Below, piece after piece: positions 776 to 6,184 of a stretch of 11,559 nt of DNA (position 1 is the stretch's first letter; each line of letters begins with the position of its first letter). The notes beneath the pieces were generated by a model. The model made no database searches. It had not been told where the DNA came from and worked only from the letters and a program-made list of their open reading frames with translations. Source of the stretch: Cellvibrionaceae bacterium (GTDB lineage Bacteria; Pseudomonadota; Gammaproteobacteria; Pseudomonadales; Cellvibrionaceae); contig JALUYN010000392.1 in the NCBI GenBank assembly GCA_027012915.1, positions 1 through 11,559 on the forward strand, given 5' to 3'. The translations under genes were made by a program, and so were the position numbers.

Positions 776-1708
776 ATGGATACGTTCAGATGTGGTGTGC
801 TCTTAGGCCTCCTTTTGCTTTACCTGCCTCTCGCCAGCGCCGAAATATACAAGTGGGTGGATGAAAAAGGCCGCGTCCACTTTGGCGACCGCAAAGACAA
901 GAAGTTGGCTCAAGAAGTCGTCAAACCCCAGATTCATGCCTCCCAGTGGTCCCGCTACAATATTGATGTTAAAGCCGAAGATGTTGCTATCTCCCCGGAG
1001 GAGATTCAGTCGATCCGCGACGGCGTCAATCATGTCTATGAGTTCTACGACAGAATCCTGCATTTCGATTTCTACAAAACCGTGCCGGTCAATATTCTGA
1101 TATTGAAAGACCAGGCCACTTATTATCAATACCTCACGAAAAAATACGGCAGGCGGCCGACGCCTTCGTACGATGTTTACTACCCGAAAGACAATCAAAT
1201 CATTGTCTATATGCGCGAAGATCGCGCCGGCACATTCCGGACCATTCGACACGAAGCCAGCCATGCCATCGTCGATACCATAACCCCTTATGCTCCGGCC
1301 TGGCTCAACGAAGGCCTGGCCGAGCAAATGGAGACACTGAAGAAATCCGGCAGTCAGTTGAAAATTGACAAGCACGCCATTAATCACCGCCAGGTGCGCC
1401 CTCAACTGCAAAGCAATAGCGTAATGGGAATCGGCGCTTTCCTGCGGCTGCCGAGCAAGAAGTGGCGCCATACCCTGGCCAATCGCAATGGTGGGTTGCA
1501 GGCTTACGCTGGAGAGTTCGTCAATTTTCTACTGAGCACTTCGCCAGATCGCAGTTTTGTCATGCGCCTGATGCACAAGTTTGAACGCGGCGATCGCACC
1601 ATTTCCTATTACCTGGTGGATCAAAATTATATCGGCGGGATTCGCACGCTGGAGGTTAAGTGGAATAGCTGGCTGGCGGCTTCGCGACAGGACACGATAG
1701 AGTTGTAG
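776..1708 (+). CDS. secreted DUF4124-domain protein with zinc-metallopeptidase (HExxH) motif
   Basis: A 310-residue protein with an N-terminal signal peptide (hydrophobic core about 7-20, likely cleavage after LASA near residue 22). It has a short DUF4124 module (IYKWVDEKGRVHFGD, residues 24-38), then a peptidase-like region. The zinc site is seen directly: H159-E160-A-S-H163, followed 16 residues later by E179 in the NEGLAE motif. This is the gluzincin arrangement, found in DUF1570 and peptidase-MA-like proteins. It probably acts in the periplasm or outer envelope as an endopeptidase. The substrate is not indicated. AAGGA at 761-765 precedes the ATG by 10 bases. The gene stands alone: a promoter-like element and an inverted repeat lie upstream, and 332 non-coding bases follow. 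The putative catalytic residues are intact, so it is probably active. The DUF4124 module is known in envelope proteins but has no settled function. Confidence 0.8.
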   Translation: MDTFRCGVLLGLLLLYLPLASAEIYKWVDEKGRVHFGDRKDKKLAQEVVKPQIHASQWSRYNIDVKAEDVAISPEEIQSIRDGVNHVYEFYDRILHFDFYKTVPVNILILKDQATYYQYLTKKYGRRPTPSYDVYYPKDNQIIVYMREDRAGTFRTIRHEASHAIVDTITPYAPAWLNEGLAEQMETLKKSGSQLKIDKHAINHRQVRPQLQSNSVMGIGAFLRLPSKKWRHTLANRNGGLQAYAGEFVNFLLSTSPDRSFVMRLMHKFERGDRTISYYLVDQNYIGGIRTLEVKWNSWLAASRQDTIEL

Positions 1709-1898
1709 CTTCTATCGATACTAAGATTCAATCTATGTAGTGCTTAGATCAGCCATCGTGATTTGAAAGAAGACTGAAGGGTTTTGATGCCAAAGTTGAT
1801 GCTTCAACAGCATTATCCATTTGGGTGGTTCGATAGCTGTCTGCATGACTCAAATTAACCCTTAGCAGACATAATGCGGGCGATTGCTGCTCTGCCTT

Positions 1899-1930
1899 AG
1901 TGGTATATGGGAAAAATTCCATATATCACT
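1899..1930. repeat. inverted repeat with 12-bp arms and AT-rich loop
   Basis: AGTGGTATATGG (1899-1910) pairs with CCATATATCACT (1919-1930) at all 12 positions with one G-T wobble (1903/1926). The 8-base loop is GAAAAATT. No T-run follows on either strand, so it does not look like a standard intrinsic terminator. It may be a regulator-binding site or a stem-loop in the 3' end of the metallopeptidase transcript. Confidence 0.6.
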
Positions 1931-2015
1931 GAAAAGTGGCATTCTTTAACTCTATAACATGCTGTTTTTGAAGAGAATACAGTGGAAGTGTATTTATACA
2001 GGAAGTGATATACGG

Positions 2016-2029
2016 ACCGACGGGTCGGT
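2016..2029. promoter_or_regulatory. palindrome resembling a TetR-family operator
   Basis: ACCGAC (2016-2021), GG, GTCGGT (2024-2029) is a perfect 6+6 palindrome with a 2-bp centre. The ACCGAC/GTCGGT pattern is typical of many TetR/AcrR operators. It lies just downstream of the AT-rich promoter-like sequence at 1968-2000 and ends 11 bases before the cassette boundary. It differs clearly from the palindrome beside the TetR gene in this window (6893-6915), so another regulator would be its partner. Function is inferred. Confidence 0.45.
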
Positions 2030-2039
2030 TTAACACACT

Positions 2040-2046
2040 GTTAAGT
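2040..2046 (+). other. upstream cassette boundary core GTTAAGT
   Basis: GTTAAGT fits the integron core GTTRRRY, with recombination expected between G2040 and T2041. It is the exact reverse complement of the R'' box ACTTAAC (4054-4060) of the attC downstream. This is expected if bases 2041-4173 once formed a circular cassette whose R' box was G plus TTAAGT. The 7-bp agreement across about 2 kb is the main evidence for the left boundary. Confidence 0.7.
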
Positions 2047-2058
2047 CTATTGATAGAC
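2045..2058. repeat. short inverted repeat in the cassette leader
   Basis: GTCTAT (2045-2050), TG, ATAGAC (2053-2058): a perfect 6-bp palindrome 13 bases before the start codon. It overlaps the last bases of the boundary core and lies ahead of the likely Shine-Dalgarno GAG at 2063-2065. It could be an operator or a small leader hairpin. It may also be chance. Confidence 0.35.
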
Positions 2059-2071
2059 AGACGAGTTTAGG

Positions 2072-2524
2072 ATGAACGAAGTAAAACAAAAGATAGCCCT
2101 TTTCATTGATGCCGATAACGCACCAGCCAGCAGGTTCGAAGATGTCCTTAGTGAAGTTGCAAAGTATGGTGTGGTGACAATCCGCAAGGCTTATGGAAAC
2201 TGGAAATCACCAACCTTAAGGCAATGGGAAGAATTGCTTCATGAGTATGCAATCCAGCCAATTCAGCAGTACGATCTAACCAAAGGTAAAAATGCATCTG
2301 ACATTGCACTCGTCATTGACGCTATGGACGTCATGTACACCAAAGAAATCGACGTAATGTGCTTTGTTTCATCGGATAGTGATTTCACTCCAATGGTCAC
2401 AAGAGCATTAGCAGAGGGAAAAGTTGTGTTGGGGTTCGGTGAGCGGAAGACGCCTTCACCTTTTGTGAATGCATGCTCAAAGTTTCTCTTGAGGTGGTCT
2501 AATAGATCTGTACAACCCAGTTAA
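2072..2524 (+). CDS. NYN-domain (LabA-like, PIN-fold RNase) protein, truncated by an IS3-family insertion
   Basis: Residues 1-139 are native and form a full NYN domain of the LabA/DUF88 type. Seen directly: FIDADN (11-16) with D13 and D15, the K-AYGNW segment (39-44), KNASD (73-77) with D77, and SSDSDF (100-105) with D102 and D104. These are the acidic residues expected to bind metal in this RNase fold. From base 2490 the frame runs into the insertion sequence and adds 11 foreign residues (LRWSNRSVQPS) before a TAA in the left terminal repeat. The rest of the gene, the LOTUS domain, continues after the element at 3761. Joining 2072-2489 to 3761-4059 gives 717 bases, an intact 238-codon frame reading KFLFLDQPEA across the junction. 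The truncated product could still fold, but it lacks its predicted RNA-binding partner domain. GAG at 2063-2065 precedes the ATG by 6 bases. The target RNA is unknown. Confidence 0.85.
   Translation: MNEVKQKIALFIDADNAPASRFEDVLSEVAKYGVVTIRKAYGNWKSPTLRQWEELLHEYAIQPIQQYDLTKGKNASDIALVIDAMDVMYTKEIDVMCFVSSDSDFTPMVTRALAEGKVVLGFGERKTPSPFVNACSKFLLRWSNRSVQPS
2487..2489 (+). repeat. left target-site duplication TCT
   Basis: TCT directly before the left end of the insertion sequence matches TCT at 3758-3760 directly after its right end. Three base pairs is the usual target duplication for the IS3 family, and removing one copy restores the NYN-LOTUS frame. Confidence 0.85.
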
Positions 2525-2525
2525 G
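2490..2525 (+). repeat. IS left terminal inverted repeat
   Basis: It matches the reverse complement of 3722-3757 at 30 of 36 positions. It also supplies the premature stop (TAA 2522-2524) for the interrupted NYN gene. Confidence 0.9.
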
Positions 2526-2554
2526 AGATAATGACCTTAACTGGAGTACAAAGA

Positions 2555-2851
2555 ATGACCAAAAGAAAGAAATATTCGAAAGAGTTCAAGCTTGATGCGA
2601 TCAGCTTGGTTCTGGATCAGAGTTATACCCGAATTGAGGCTGCCAGAAGCCTGGAAATCAATGCCACTATGCTGGGGCGCTGGATTAAAGAGCATCAAGC
2701 CGATGACGACGGTCAGGCATTTAGAGGTAATGGAAAGCTGACTCCAGAGCAGGAAGAAATACGCCGACTGAAAGAAGAAAATCGGCAGCTCAAACTGGAG
2801 AGACAAATTTTAAAGGAAGCGACGGTCTTCTTCGCAAAAGAAACGAAGTAA
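2555..2851 (+). CDS. IS3-family transposase OrfA
   Basis: A 98-residue protein. An HTH_Tnp_1-type helix-turn-helix covers about residues 5-45 (from YSKEFKLDAISLV to GRWIKEHQ) and binds the terminal repeats. A leucine-zipper-like coiled coil follows at about 70-92 (EEIRRLKEENRQLKLERQIL) for oligomerisation. The ATG at 2555 is preferred over the in-frame ATG at 2531 because GGAG lies 8 bases upstream of it, and because 2531 would begin close inside the left terminal repeat. The frame ends at TAA 2849-2851 and overlaps the orfB frame. Alone, OrfA usually acts as a regulator of transposition. Fused to OrfB by a -1 frameshift it gives the full transposase. Confidence 0.93.
   Translation: MTKRKKYSKEFKLDAISLVLDQSYTRIEAARSLEINATMLGRWIKEHQADDDGQAFRGNGKLTPEQEEIRRLKEENRQLKLERQILKEATVFFAKETK
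2836..2840 (+). other. candidate programmed -1 frameshift site AAAAG
   Basis: AAAAG lies 9 bases before the orfA stop, in the codon context GCA AAA GAA. Slipping back by one base on AAA continues as AGA AAC GAA into the orfB frame without a stop, giving a 390-residue OrfAB fusion through residues FFAKRNEVKYSFIAQ. A-rich slip sites at the orfA/orfB overlap are a known IS3-family feature. The exact slip position is inferred. Confidence 0.65.
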
Positions 2852-3726
2852 AGTACTCGTTTATTGCCCAAATGAAGAAGACCTACCCTGTCGGTCTAAT
2901 GTGCCGATTACTGGGTGTTACCCGCAGTGGATATTACGGGTACCAGCAGCGCCAAAGCACTCGGCCACCGGATTTCTACCATCAGGAAATGATTGAGGCG
3001 GTCAAAGACATCGCGAAGGCGAGCGATGACAGTTATGGCAGTCGCCGGATGAAAAAGGCGCTCAATGTATTGAGCTACCCGGTAAGCCGGAACAAGGCTA
3101 GGCAGCTGATGAAAGAAGCGGGCGTGGCGGTTAAATACCGCAAGAAATACAAGGTGACGACAAACAGTAATCACAAGCAGCCCATTTTTGAGAATGTTCT
3201 CAATCGGGAGTTTGATGTTAACAAGCCAAACCAGGCTTACGCTGGTGACATCACCTACTTGTGGACACAGGAAGGCTGGCTCTATCTAGCCGTTGTTATC
3301 GACCTGTTCTCAAGGCGGGTCGTTGGCTGGAGCATGGGCAGCAGAATGAAGAGCAGCTTAGTCTGTGACGCATTGAAGATGGCGGTATGGCAAAGACGTC
3401 CTGAGGCTGGCTTGATCGTCCATTCTGATCGGGGCTCCCAGTACGCCAGCAAGAACTATCGGCGATTGCTCAAAGCTCACGGCTTCACTGGCAGCATGAG
3501 CAGAAAAGGTGATTGCTGGGACAATGCGGTTGTTGAAAGTTTCTTTGGAAGCCTGAAGCAAGAACGGGTGCAGTGGCGGAACTACCAGACTCGCTACGAA
3601 GCCCAACAGGATGTACTGCACTACATATCGATGTGGTACAACAAGGATCGGCTTCATTCATACTTGGGATACAGAAGTCCGTCCCAGTATGAAAGTGAAA
3701 TGATGGCGATGAAAAAAGTTGCTTAA
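2839..3726 (+). CDS. IS3-family transposase OrfB (DDE integrase catalytic part)
   Basis: This is the catalytic half of the transposase, read mainly as an OrfAB fusion after a -1 frameshift. An internal ATG at 2872 would give 284 residues alone. Numbered from that ATG, an HTH_21-like segment (residues about 38-95, with SYGSRRMKKAL) precedes the rve core. The catalytic triad is intact: D126 in YAGDITYLW, D186 in HSDRGSQY and E222 in VVESFFGSLK. D and E are separated by exactly 35 residues, the DD(35)E spacing of the family. The C-terminal LHSYLGYRSP motif, typical of IS3 OrfB proteins, is present. The stop TAA (3724-3726) lies inside the right terminal repeat. No frameshift or missing key residue is seen, so the enzyme should be functional. 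Confidence 0.95.
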   Translation, partial: RNEVKYSFIAQMKKTYPVGLMCRLLGVTRSGYYGYQQRQSTRPPDFYHQEMIEAVKDIAKASDDSYGSRRMKKALNVLSYPVSRNKARQLMKEAGVAVKYRKKYKVTTNSNHKQPIFENVLNREFDVNKPNQAYAGDITYLWTQEGWLYLAVVIDLFSRRVVGWSMGSRMKSSLVCDALKMAVWQRRPEAGLIVHSDRGSQYASKNYRRLLKAHGFTGSMSRKGDCWDNAVVESFFGSLKQERVQWRNYQTRYEAQQDVLHYISMWYNKDRLHSYLGYRSPSQYESEMMAMKKVA

Positions 3727-3757
3727 CTGGGGTGTACAGGTTTGCTTGACCACCTCA
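3722..3757 (-). repeat. IS right terminal inverted repeat
   Basis: Reverse complement of the left end with 30 of 36 identical positions. It ends CACCTCA at 3757, directly before the TCT duplication. Confidence 0.9.
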
Positions 3758-4059
3758 TCTTTCTTGATCAACCTGAAGCAAGAGAAGCAGAGAAAAACTC
3801 AAACCCCAAAAACATCAAATCGGACACTAAGCTAATTAATCTGTTACGACAGGCAATTGAAGCAACTGAAGATGATGACGGCTGGGCTCCTCTTGGCCCT
3901 GTCGGTGCAAACATTTCTAATAGAACGTCTTTCGACTGTAGAAACTACGGTTTCAAAAACCTGAGTAGTTTGTTTAAAGCAATTGATCTATTTGAGCTAA
4001 AGCGTGGGCAAGGCAAATCTTTCTTAGTTCGAGACATTAGAAAGAGCAAAAAGACTTAA
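3742..4059 (+). pseudogene. 3' part of the NYN gene: OST-HTH/LOTUS domain, cut off by the IS
   Basis: Native sequence resumes at 3761. Upstream bases of this frame, including the possible TTG start at 3742, belong to the insertion sequence. The segment encodes about 98 residues: an acidic/polar linker (EAREAEKNSNPKNIKSD), then a winged-helix OST-HTH/LOTUS-like domain. It runs from TKLINLLRQAIEA through DGWAPLGPVGANI and RNYGFKNLSSLFKAIDLFEL to SFLVRDIRKS. LOTUS domains bind RNA (G-rich or G-quadruplex RNA in studied cases) and are often fused to NYN nucleases in bacteria. I see no good ribosome-binding site, so expression of this piece alone is doubtful unless the insertion sequence drives it. 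The TAA lies in the attC R'' box (4054-4060), as is common for cassette genes. Confidence 0.85.
3758..3760 (+). repeat. right target-site duplication TCT
   Basis: Second copy of the 3-bp IS target duplication. See the left copy at 2487-2489. Confidence 0.85.
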
Positions 4060-4179
4060 CAAGCGGCTGTAGGCGCCATGCAAGCATGGCTGGGACGGTT
4101 TTTCTGTTGTTTATGCGCTCTCCGCTACGCTAGCGCAATACAAATAACTCCAAGTCCGCCCCTAAGTCAGGCGTTGAAT
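4054..4179 (+). other. attC: integron attC recombination site
   Basis: All parts of an attC can be placed. R'' is ACTTAAC (4054-4060, fits RYYYAAC) and R' is GTTGAAT (4173-4179, fits GTTRRRY), with cleavage expected after G4173. Between them are 4-base unpaired spacers on each side (4061-4064 and 4169-4172). An L pair follows: 4065-4073 against 4161-4168, 8 pairs including one G-T, with one bulged G at 4069 like an extrahelical base. Further pairing inside: GGC/GCC, GGAC/GTCC (4093-4096 with 4154-4157), a 7-bp stem 4106-4112 with 4142-4148, and TGCGCT/AGCGCA (4114-4119 with 4132-4137). An alternative perfect hairpin, GCCATGC AA GCATGGC, lies at 4075-4090. R' as integrated differs from a perfect R'' complement because its last six bases come from the downstream flank. 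Confidence 0.82.
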
Positions 4180-4267
4180 GTCCGTAATTGGCACAGACAG
4201 GACCAACAACGCCCACCACAATTGCTGCAGCAGGCGTGGTCAATACAAGGTGATCTACGCAGCTATA
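4174..4267. other. 94-bp gap between the cassette end and the convergent amidohydrolase stop
   Basis: No gene is seen. It starts with the recipient-side TTGAAT of the cassette junction. ACCAC and GTGGT flank a TGCTGCAGCA palindrome here, but no stem with a T-run is visible, so I cannot point to a terminator for the amidohydrolase. Confidence 0.5.
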
Positions 4268-6184
4268 TCACGCGGTATTTTTCAGATCCGCTTGTTGTGG
4301 TGTGGCAGCCTTTCGGTTTCTCAGTAAGCGACCCATTGCTCGCTTGCCGAAGTCCTTGCCGAATTGATCTTTTTCCCAGGCTACCTTGCCGCCAATCATT
4401 ACCAGAGGTACGACTCCGTCGGAGCGGTTCACCAGTTGATGGTGGTTGTATTCTTCGCGGTGAATTCGTTGAATATTGGCCTCGCCGTTGTAATTGTTCA
4501 GAGCTTGTGGGTCGATCAGAACCAGGTCCGCTTTGTCGCCAATGTTAATGCTGCCGCCTTCCAGGTCGAACAAATCAGCTGCATCCTTGGTCAGGCGCTT
4601 CACCATATAGCTGACATCGTTGTCGCCGCCTTGGGCCGCCAGTTTCAGGCAGCGCAAGTTGACGTCGTAGAATGCCATGTTGGTCAAATGCGCGCCGCTG
4701 TCGTTAAAGCCGGGCAGCAGCAGCGGATGCATAATCAATTCGCGGGTGACTTTGGGGTCGCGGTTGGCGGTGGTGGTGCTCCAGCTTAAATTCAGATCAA
4801 AGCTGCGCAGCATTTGTAACATGAAGTCTGCTTCGTCACTGATCCAGAAGAATTCTTTTTCCAGTAGCACGGACTCTTCTTCGGTGAGATTGGCCGGTTT
4901 GTTGCCCTTCTTAATTTCCAGAACGCGTTCGAAAGCACTTTGGAAATCCATGCCCTGCCAGTGTTGTAGCGGGCAGACATCGATAAACATATCCTCGAAG
5001 GTGCGGTTGAAAGCGTAGTCCTCTACATTCAGTAAACGCTTAAGTCGCGCAACGCTCACGCCTTGTTTGCCCTTTAGCCACATATTGCGGAAGGTCTGAA
5101 TATACTCTGGATCGTTCAATATTCTTTGTCGAGCTGCGCGATCTTCCAGGTCGGTTTCGTTCAAACGACGCAGTTCCGGGATTTCTTCGGCCAGCGGTGT
5201 CACGGCGCCATCGGACCAGATCTTAAAGGGTGCACCCAGGGCCTGCATATGAAAGTCGCCCTTAAGCAGTTTGGAGTTGAGCAGGCGCGCCAATACTTTA
5301 CCAAGGCGGGAGATCTTCCAGTTGTTGGTGACATCCAGCGCAGCGACGACGGTGGTTTTCAATGCCTTGCCGTGAAACAGCCCGCTGGACAGCATAAAGG
5401 TTTTCAGTGTGCCGATAACGCTGTCTTTAGGTGGCGTTGCCTGCCACACCGCATCGCGTTCGCGTAGTACTTGAGTCAGCTGTTTGATCTCATCGTACTT
5501 GGCGAACTGGGTGGGAATGGTCTTGTCACAGTGGGCGGCACTGGCCAGGTAGTGGAAGGGCAGTGCGTCGGTGGACATGCCGACATAACCACTGTCGAGG
5601 GCATCTGACAGGGTTTGCTTCATGGCGTTGACTTCCACTTGGGTGGGGTCGCGGCTGATGCTTTCCTCAAAGCCCATGGCATCGATACGCAGCATTGAGT
5701 GGGGTAACAACGAGGCAACGTTTGGTCCCAGATTCAGGGTTTCCAAGTGTGAAAAGTACTCCTGAGGCGTGTTCCAGCTGACTCCGTCAGCACCACTGCG
5801 CAGAACATGTTTGGGTAGATTTTCAACCCGGGCAAAACAATCGACGATGGGATCGTTTTTACCATCGCGCTGGTTGCCGAACGCCAGGCCCAAGCTGCAG
5901 TTGGCGATGACGACGGTAGTGGTGCCATGTCGAACCGACTCGGGAAGACCCGGCGCCACTTCCAATTCCAGGTCGTAGTGGGTATGGATATCGAACAGGC
6001 CCGGAGTCAGCCACAGTCCCTGGGCATCAACTTCGCGTTTGGCGCTGGCAATATTGAGGTTGGTTCCTCGCGCGACAATATGGCCGTCGCGAATAGCGAT
6101 GTCTTCAACGATTGGAGTCTTGCCCTCGTTAAAAATCTTGGCACCTTTGATCCAGGTGTCGACTTTCAATGCCGAGTTTGTCAT
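4268..6184 (-). CDS. amidohydrolase-family protein, N-acyl-D-amino-acid deacylase-like (COG3653)
   Basis: A 638-residue protein with the composite amidohydrolase layout. An N-terminal beta part (WIKGAKIFNEGKTP, IRDGHIVARG) leads to the metal motif FDIHTHYD, H67 and H69. HGTTTVVIANCSLGLAFG follows with C96, the position of the metal-ligand cysteine in D-aminoacylases. GMSTDALPF lies at 202-210, GFNDSGAH near residues 492-499 with D495, and the closing beta part is INIGDKADLVLIDP. These point to hydrolysis of an amide bond in an N-acyl amino acid or similar compound, in the cytoplasm (no signal peptide). It is longer than typical D-aminoacylases (about 480-500 residues), with a long insert around 255-450. 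Where the classical enzymes have a metal-binding histidine in an ISH-type motif, I read AVWQATPP here, so the metal site may differ. It lies 58 bp downstream of the TetR gene on the same strand. AGGAATAGAG precedes the ATG. Confidence 0.82.
   Translation of the reverse strand: MTNSALKVDTWIKGAKIFNEGKTPIVEDIAIRDGHIVARGTNLNIASAKREVDAQGLWLTPGLFDIHTHYDLELEVAPGLPESVRHGTTTVVIANCSLGLAFGNQRDGKNDPIVDCFARVENLPKHVLRSGADGVSWNTPQEYFSHLETLNLGPNVASLLPHSMLRIDAMGFEESISRDPTQVEVNAMKQTLSDALDSGYVGMSTDALPFHYLASAAHCDKTIPTQFAKYDEIKQLTQVLRERDAVWQATPPKDSVIGTLKTFMLSSGLFHGKALKTTVVAALDVTNNWKISRLGKVLARLLNSKLLKGDFHMQALGAPFKIWSDGAVTPLAEEIPELRRLNETDLEDRAARQRILNDPEYIQTFRNMWLKGKQGVSVARLKRLLNVEDYAFNRTFEDMFIDVCPLQHWQGMDFQSAFERVLEIKKGNKPANLTEEESVLLEKEFFWISDEADFMLQMLRSFDLNLSWSTTTANRDPKVTRELIMHPLLLPGFNDSGAHLTNMAFYDVNLRCLKLAAQGGDNDVSYMVKRLTKDAADLFDLEGGSINIGDKADLVLIDPQALNNYNGEANIQRIHREEYNHHQLVNRSDGVVPLVMIGGKVAWEKDQFGKDFGKRAMGRLLRNRKAATPQQADLKNTA

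Follow-up and report, generated by a model that had tools for sequence, protein, structure and literature searches.

An integron gene cassette almost certainly occupies positions 2041-4173 of an 11,559-nucleotide stretch of DNA from a Cellvibrionaceae bacterium (assembly GCA_027012915.1, contig JALUYN010000392.1), hereafter the window. The proposed cassette holds a gene for a protein with an NYN and a LOTUS domain, ends at an attC recombination site, and has been entered by an insertion sequence (IS) of the IS3 family. An original prediction, made from the letters of the window, had described a solitary cassette in the gap between a metallopeptidase gene and a convergent amidohydrolase gene. 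Support for that placement between two chromosomal genes comes from two attC models, from borders that agree exactly with those of a homologous gene in another genome of the family (G008), and from sister genes lying beside attC sites, but the prediction had overlooked that the IS splits the gene.

The attC site at the 3′ end

Two covariance models of attC sites were built with the window excluded. Model R1 was trained on 20 sites from a family integron (L158, seven sites), the array of Vibrio sp. HDW18 (L250, 12 sites) and L189 (one site), and model R2 on 70 sites from R1 matches in 25 of 26 integron loci (L246 was left out), 19 of which are R1's own training sites. Within the window, R1 gives 4054-4179 as its sole match at E ≤ 10 (22.4 bits, E = 2.3e-4), and R2 scores the same interval at 36.0 bits (E = 3.4e-7), in agreement with the attC site that had been proposed there. 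Over 1.39 Mb, comprising 80 related loci and the window (81 sources), R1 finds the window site at E = 0.028 and one further match, in L054; R2 finds six matches, namely the window site (E = 4.1e-5) and five in a single L054 array. The covariance-model searches revealed no second attC in the window, as had been stated, and with filters off over 1650-4500 the next-best match reaches 10.8 bits (E = 0.11). A weight-matrix scan, run as a separate method on both strands of 2.75 Mb, scores the window at 44.6 when trained on Vibrio sites (L054, 47.1; next control, 29.1) and at 46.1 when trained on all sites (best score outside L054, 31.1). Judged from its sequence, 4054-4179 is a genuine attC site, beyond chance. 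A hand-made attC scanner was replaced by the covariance models, its R'' rule being too strict and Vibrio sites being missed. The L054 array, at 15735-17566 of a locus from an Alcanivoracaceae metagenome-assembled genome, contains at least five attC sites downstream of an amidohydrolase relative.

The 5′ end of the cassette, GTTAAGT (2040-2046, + strand), is the exact reverse complement of its own R'', ACTTAAC (4054-4060), at 7/7 positions, and the stop codon TAA (4057-4059) lies inside R''; both had been pointed out in the original prediction. The GTTRRRY motif alone is uninformative, with 25 occurrences in the window vs. 20.7 expected. Both the R and the L arms of the 3′ attC are paired. The L arm reads GGCT, bulged G, TAG against CTA, AGTC, resembling the GCCT, bulge, AAG of the Vibrio cholerae repeat (VCR) type, and the layout of R, spacer and L with a bulged G agrees with the model alignment. 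In the alignment of the R2 set, which is fitted to the model, changes on both sides occur in 7/7 pairs of the L arm, and paired cells amount to 89.2%, vs. 69.9% when shuffled and 33-46% when slid.

Folding predictions weigh against a functional cassette end. The claim that the site folds as attC sites do stood as far as the model alignment is concerned, but the unconstrained minimum-energy folds are non-canonical and no stabler than shuffles (z = -0.16 for the bottom strand and -1.09 for the top strand). For the bottom strand, the attC fold has a predicted probability of 8e-6 in situ and 2e-4 in the circular form. Each of 14 other sites examined scores higher (6e-4 to 0.52), and on these models the window attC looks like a poor recombination substrate today. 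Also, a weight matrix trained on L158 alone separates the window poorly (36.3 vs. 32.6 outside L054). The non-canonical free fold and this last scan would suit a locus with no cassette at all, in which an ordinary chromosomal NYN-LOTUS gene happens to be followed by an attC-like hairpin, as would the abundance of this widespread gene (at least 7,920 homologues) and its lack of an abutting attC at most other loci. Such a coincidence is very improbable, given the covariance-model E-values over 1.39 Mb, the exact 5′ border and the sister genes beside attC sites.

Cassette boundaries and the split NYN-LOTUS gene

Genome G008 carries an intact copy of the gene, with 96% identity in the NYN protein and 87-88% identity in nucleotides. 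Homology begins exactly at GTTAAGT, where 23/31 nt are identical past the 5′ crossover and 7/30 before it, and stops at ACTTAAC, with 5/40 nt identical after it; the flanks are unrelated. The same borders therefore stand in another setting in G008, as do those of sister genes in three further loci. One point tells against this comparison, in that the 3′ border of homology falls on the stop codon, and for that reason the 5′ border carries more weight. Recent lateral transfer, considered from the 96% identity with G008, was dropped because the NYN-LOTUS protein is highly conserved.

Among 36 non-window loci with NYN-LOTUS genes, three (L192, L184 and L084) have the gene abutting an attC. In L192, from genome G086, an attC ends ...GGCG/TTAAGTCTGACC... 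(the slash marks the crossover) immediately ahead of the NYN-LOTUS gene, and the corresponding junction in L184 is GGCG/TTAAGTTG..., while in L084 the stop codon of the gene falls within an attC. The cassette start TTAAGTCT is common to the window, L192 and G008. No abutting attC was found in the other 33 of the 36 loci, some of which hold attC sites elsewhere (L189, L193, L195, L201 and L205). That of L189 lies two small frames upstream of the NYN-LOTUS gene (R2 E = 0.0058; the site belonged to the R1 training set). The cassette form is a minority among the NYN-LOTUS loci examined.

The unit in the window is not filled by a single intact gene. The IS makes up 1,268 of its 2,133 bp, with the NYN domain before it and the LOTUS domain after it, and intact copies of the gene exist in relatives. 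Entry of the IS was later than formation of the cassette, and the unit minus the IS fits the cassette pattern. Since the IS separates NYN from LOTUS, the two-domain protein is predicted not to be made at the window locus. In relatives, the domains of the intact protein predict an RNA-binding endoribonuclease. The pairing of NYN and LOTUS domains also occurs in the eukaryotic RNase MARF1, as far as the excerpted sources describe it. The protein discussed here shares with the MARF1 type an NYN nuclease domain and a LOTUS domain, and differs in its length of ~238 aa with one copy per domain, in lying beside attC sites in some genomes, and in being split in the window. Literature listings and the openings of abstracts, a partial coverage and no proof of absence, yielded no report of NYN-LOTUS cassettes. 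The NYN-LOTUS nuclease is hereby added to the cassette gene pool, and the window adds a case in which a stranded cassette gene has been split by an IS.

The 5′ junction and the origin of the cassette

The recipient half before the 5′ crossover reads ACCGAC-GG-GTCGGT, then TTAACACACTG/TT, with the inverted repeat ending 10 nt before the G. As a comparison set for the 25 nt before G/TT, the beginnings of other cassette rows were located via the first cassette's own R''. Eleven of 20 integrase loci provided attI sites (in the other nine, the candidate was absent, ambiguous or attC-end-like), and there the cassettes start 230-419 nt from the integrase match. An inverted repeat of at least 5 bp ending 10-11 nt before the G is present at 5/11 of these attI sites vs. 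985/20,023 control GTTR sites. Among the controls, 230/20,023 have a repeat of at least 6 bp, 301/20,023 reach the sequence score of the window, and 5/20,023 combine this score with the 6-bp repeat as the window does (23 with a repeat of at least 5 bp), the joint pattern of 12 nt and inverted repeat having been recognized post hoc. When the matrix is built on 16 distinct dispersed leaders instead, the rank of the window is 89/20,034 over 12 nt and 241/20,034 over 14 nt. Leaders were sought in 21 non-window elements, 19 of which gave a candidate (L278 and the second L273 element gave none). Two candidates (L279 and L266, scoring at 45% and 86% of controls) were dropped as unlike the others, and the better-looking of two was taken for L262 and L270. 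Of the 17 leaders retained, four end in the same 12 nt as a training attI. Because the pattern was noticed before scoring and two misfits were dropped, these counts are descriptive frequencies and not clean p-values.

On this comparison, the recipient half looks attI-like rather than arbitrary. Apart from the post hoc recognition of the pattern, it counts against this that the sequence alone puts the window at 1.5% of controls, that the window misses the 1% level of the attI-only matrix (exceeded by 10/17 dispersed leaders, with seven below), and that the 332 bp upstream (1709-2040) match 0/27 attI or leader upstream regions. The site is called attI-like and not attI because no integrase gene or trace was found upstream in the window by tblastn. 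The stretch 2028-2046, GTTTAAC-ACACT-GTTAAGT, forms an inverted core-like pair, which is found at 15/2,313 control GTTRRRY sites. Such RYYYAAC/GTTRRRY pairs were tried as an attI hallmark and given up because they are absent from all 17 integrase loci scanned. In Pseudoalteromonas integrons (L249, 17546-17646; L245, L247 and L248), attI has the same inverted repeat and an AT-rich stretch before G/TT, an example being CGACCCA-T-TGGGTCG in L247.

As had been noted, the window contains no integrase; tblastn of six IntI proteins gave a best E of 1.0. An integron integrase above cut-off is present in 111/144 family genomes. Somewhat favored is a history in which the cassette stands alone because an integrase encoded elsewhere in the genome inserted it, acting from afar on an attI-like site. 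An excised circle with the GTTAAGT/ACTTAAC attC would recombine, through its folded bottom strand, with the G/TT of an attI-like site between two convergent genes, and no integrase would remain with the inserted cassette. As the last step, shown by the ends and target duplication of the element, the IS entered the gene and parted NYN from LOTUS.

The attI-like recipient half also allows a decayed integron from which intI was lost. The cassette would then be all that survives, together with the attI-like site, of a small integron at this locus, intI and any other cassettes having been deleted. Decay of this kind does occur in family genomes, since L264 and L265 (both in G086) have broken integron-integrase pieces beside their cassette rows and are decayed integrons. 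The window itself has no such trace, and its upstream gap has no homology to the 27 attI or leader regions. Of 14 dispersed-leader loci examined, the remaining 12 yielded no integrase fragment at E ≤ 1e-3, so rows lacking intI need not be decayed integrons. A local remnant is rather unlikely.

Genome-wide R2 counts (E ≤ 0.01, 150 candidates scored per genome) gave 104 attC matches in G008, 32 in G086, 25 in G002 and eight in G001. Those of G008 are spread over at least 10 separate chromosomal places. This genome has a single integrase above cut-off and three copies of the attI region, L146 at 24 kb (100% identity), L272 at 0.57 Mb (84%) and L273 at 2.24 Mb (79%), and the two distant copies head integrase-less cassette clusters. 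Many such clusters exist in family genomes, some behind attI copies; literature listings and abstract openings, again partial, gave no report of dispersed clusters headed by attI copies that lack an integrase. Among 20 regions examined, several of them picked because one attC stood alone in the genome-wide count, four (L262, L266, L267 and L268) contain just one attC at E ≤ 0.1 over ~4 kb, and a lone attC is therefore not unusual in these genomes. Family integrons could even be distributed machines, with one integrase and many scattered attI-like landing platforms bearing short lists of cassettes or a single one, the window being a platform with a lone RNase cassette; this idea is speculative and rather doubtful.

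Loot et al. in 2024 reportedly described insertion of cassettes at attG sites. The subject is treated in PMC12901181 and appears as one reference entry in PMC11023631, and off-target integrase recombination at GTT or GTTRRRY-like sites is covered in PMC10127599, each as excerpted. Integrase insertion at a secondary, attG-type site, as the original prediction had supposed, is plausible for the window from its sequence. Like attG insertions, the cassette lies outside an integron platform and is joined at G/TT; it differs in the attI-type inverted repeat of its recipient half, attG being known here from the descriptions of citing papers. A single attC and an attC cluster lacking an integrase are termed SALIN and CALIN, respectively, in the excerpts of PMC12690207 and PMC9024848. 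The window resembles these in that a cassette with exactly one attC stands in surroundings free of an integrase (just 2.0 kb on the upstream side and 7.4 kb on the downstream side were covered), and differs in its IS-interrupted gene and attI-like 5′ junction, being known from one contig stretch and not from a whole genome. Chromosomal arrays of the Cellvibrionaceae type (L146, L147, L158 and L192) have attC sites of the same class, and L192 shares the cassette start; they are rows of cassettes, whereas the window has one. Solitary cassettes and attG insertion are thus already described, and the window is a further example. Cassettes outside integrons show integrase activity seeding genomes with genes. 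Should their landing sites prove to be attI-like platforms and not random, the positions would be predictable from sequence, which is testable, and clusters without an integrase would count as outposts and not as debris.

Neighboring genes and the 3′ flank

Table 1. Features of the window, with positions counted from its first letter.
Feature	Position	Strand	Basis or remark
DUF4124 protein gene, HEASH (HExxH) motif	776..1708	+	Upstream neighbor; domain match, motif read by eye
5′ recipient half, attI-like	2015..2040	+	Inverted repeat ACCGAC (2016-2021) / GTCGGT (2024-2029), then TTAACACACTG
GTTAAGT core site, 5′ cassette boundary G/TTAAGT	2040..2046	+	G008 nucleotide homology begins here
Cassette including IS	2041..4173	+	Between two G/TT crossover points, attC by models
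NYN-domain half of split gene	2072..2489	+	PF01936 E = 5.3e-39; open frame enters IS, to 2524
IS target duplication TCT	2487-2489 and 3758-3760		
IS3-family insertion sequence, 1,268 bp	2490..3757	+	NF033516 E = 1.2e-106, matching terminal repeats
IS transposase frames	2531-2851 and 2872-3726		
OST-HTH/LOTUS half, stop TAA inside R''	3758..4059	+	PF12872 E = 4.7e-17 on frame 3742-4059
attC site, 126 bp	4054..4179	+	Covariance models R1 and R2; from 4174 onward recipient sequence
attC parts	R'' 4054-4060; L'' ~4065-4072; L' ~4162-4168; R' 4173-4179		Bulged G 4069
3′ recipient side, TTGAATG...	4174..4267	.	Contains GTCCGTAATTGGCAC (4180-4194)
Amidohydrolase gene	4268..6184	-	Convergent downstream neighbor; PF07969 E = 3.2e-12

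The order of the locus is the DUF4124 gene, a 332-bp gap, the IS3-split NYN-LOTUS gene, the attC and the convergent amidohydrolase gene, beyond which lie TetR, alpha/beta-hydrolase, DUF2147, AraC and molybdopterin oxidoreductase genes. Two homologues of the DUF4124 protein also carry PF13485, and its homologues were found on six contigs, the longest of 12,968 bp, which makes a metagenomic source probable. The amidohydrolase is nearest to that of Pseudoteredinibacter (74%) among the 80 loci kept of 95, many of which are short contigs and none of which (0/80) has a DUF4124 match at E ≤ 1e-8. This similarity suggests an origin in Cellvibrionaceae or in a sister family. A search for an empty site with the DUF4124 protein found both neighbors together in none of the 80 amidohydrolase loci, 144 family genomes and 390 order genomes. 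The best identity of this protein in the same set is 58%, and so the window locus has no close relative there. Rfam at gathering scores gave no match, PADLOC matched nothing for two proteins, and 0 promoter consensus sequences were seen in 1690-4290 vs. 3.8 expected.

On the 3′ side, the 15-mer GTCCGTAATTGGCAC directly follows R'. It also stands behind a short attC-like remnant after NYN-LOTUS on three Pseudoalteromonas plasmids (L085, 4732-4746; L209, 4702-4716; L210, 4720-4734). Both cassettes either encountered one type of sequence or once had a neighbor in common. A dispersed repeat was considered and rejected, as a 19-mer form occurs in 0/144 family genomes and in no viral contig, and the wider pattern likewise in no viral contig. 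A looser 17-nt pattern is present in 96/144 family genomes, with reversed-pattern controls similar by eye and not summed. By eye, a motif like GTCCGTAATTGGCAC is also seen at the left end of IS1182-family copies in L085, L212, L213 and L214, though not in L211.

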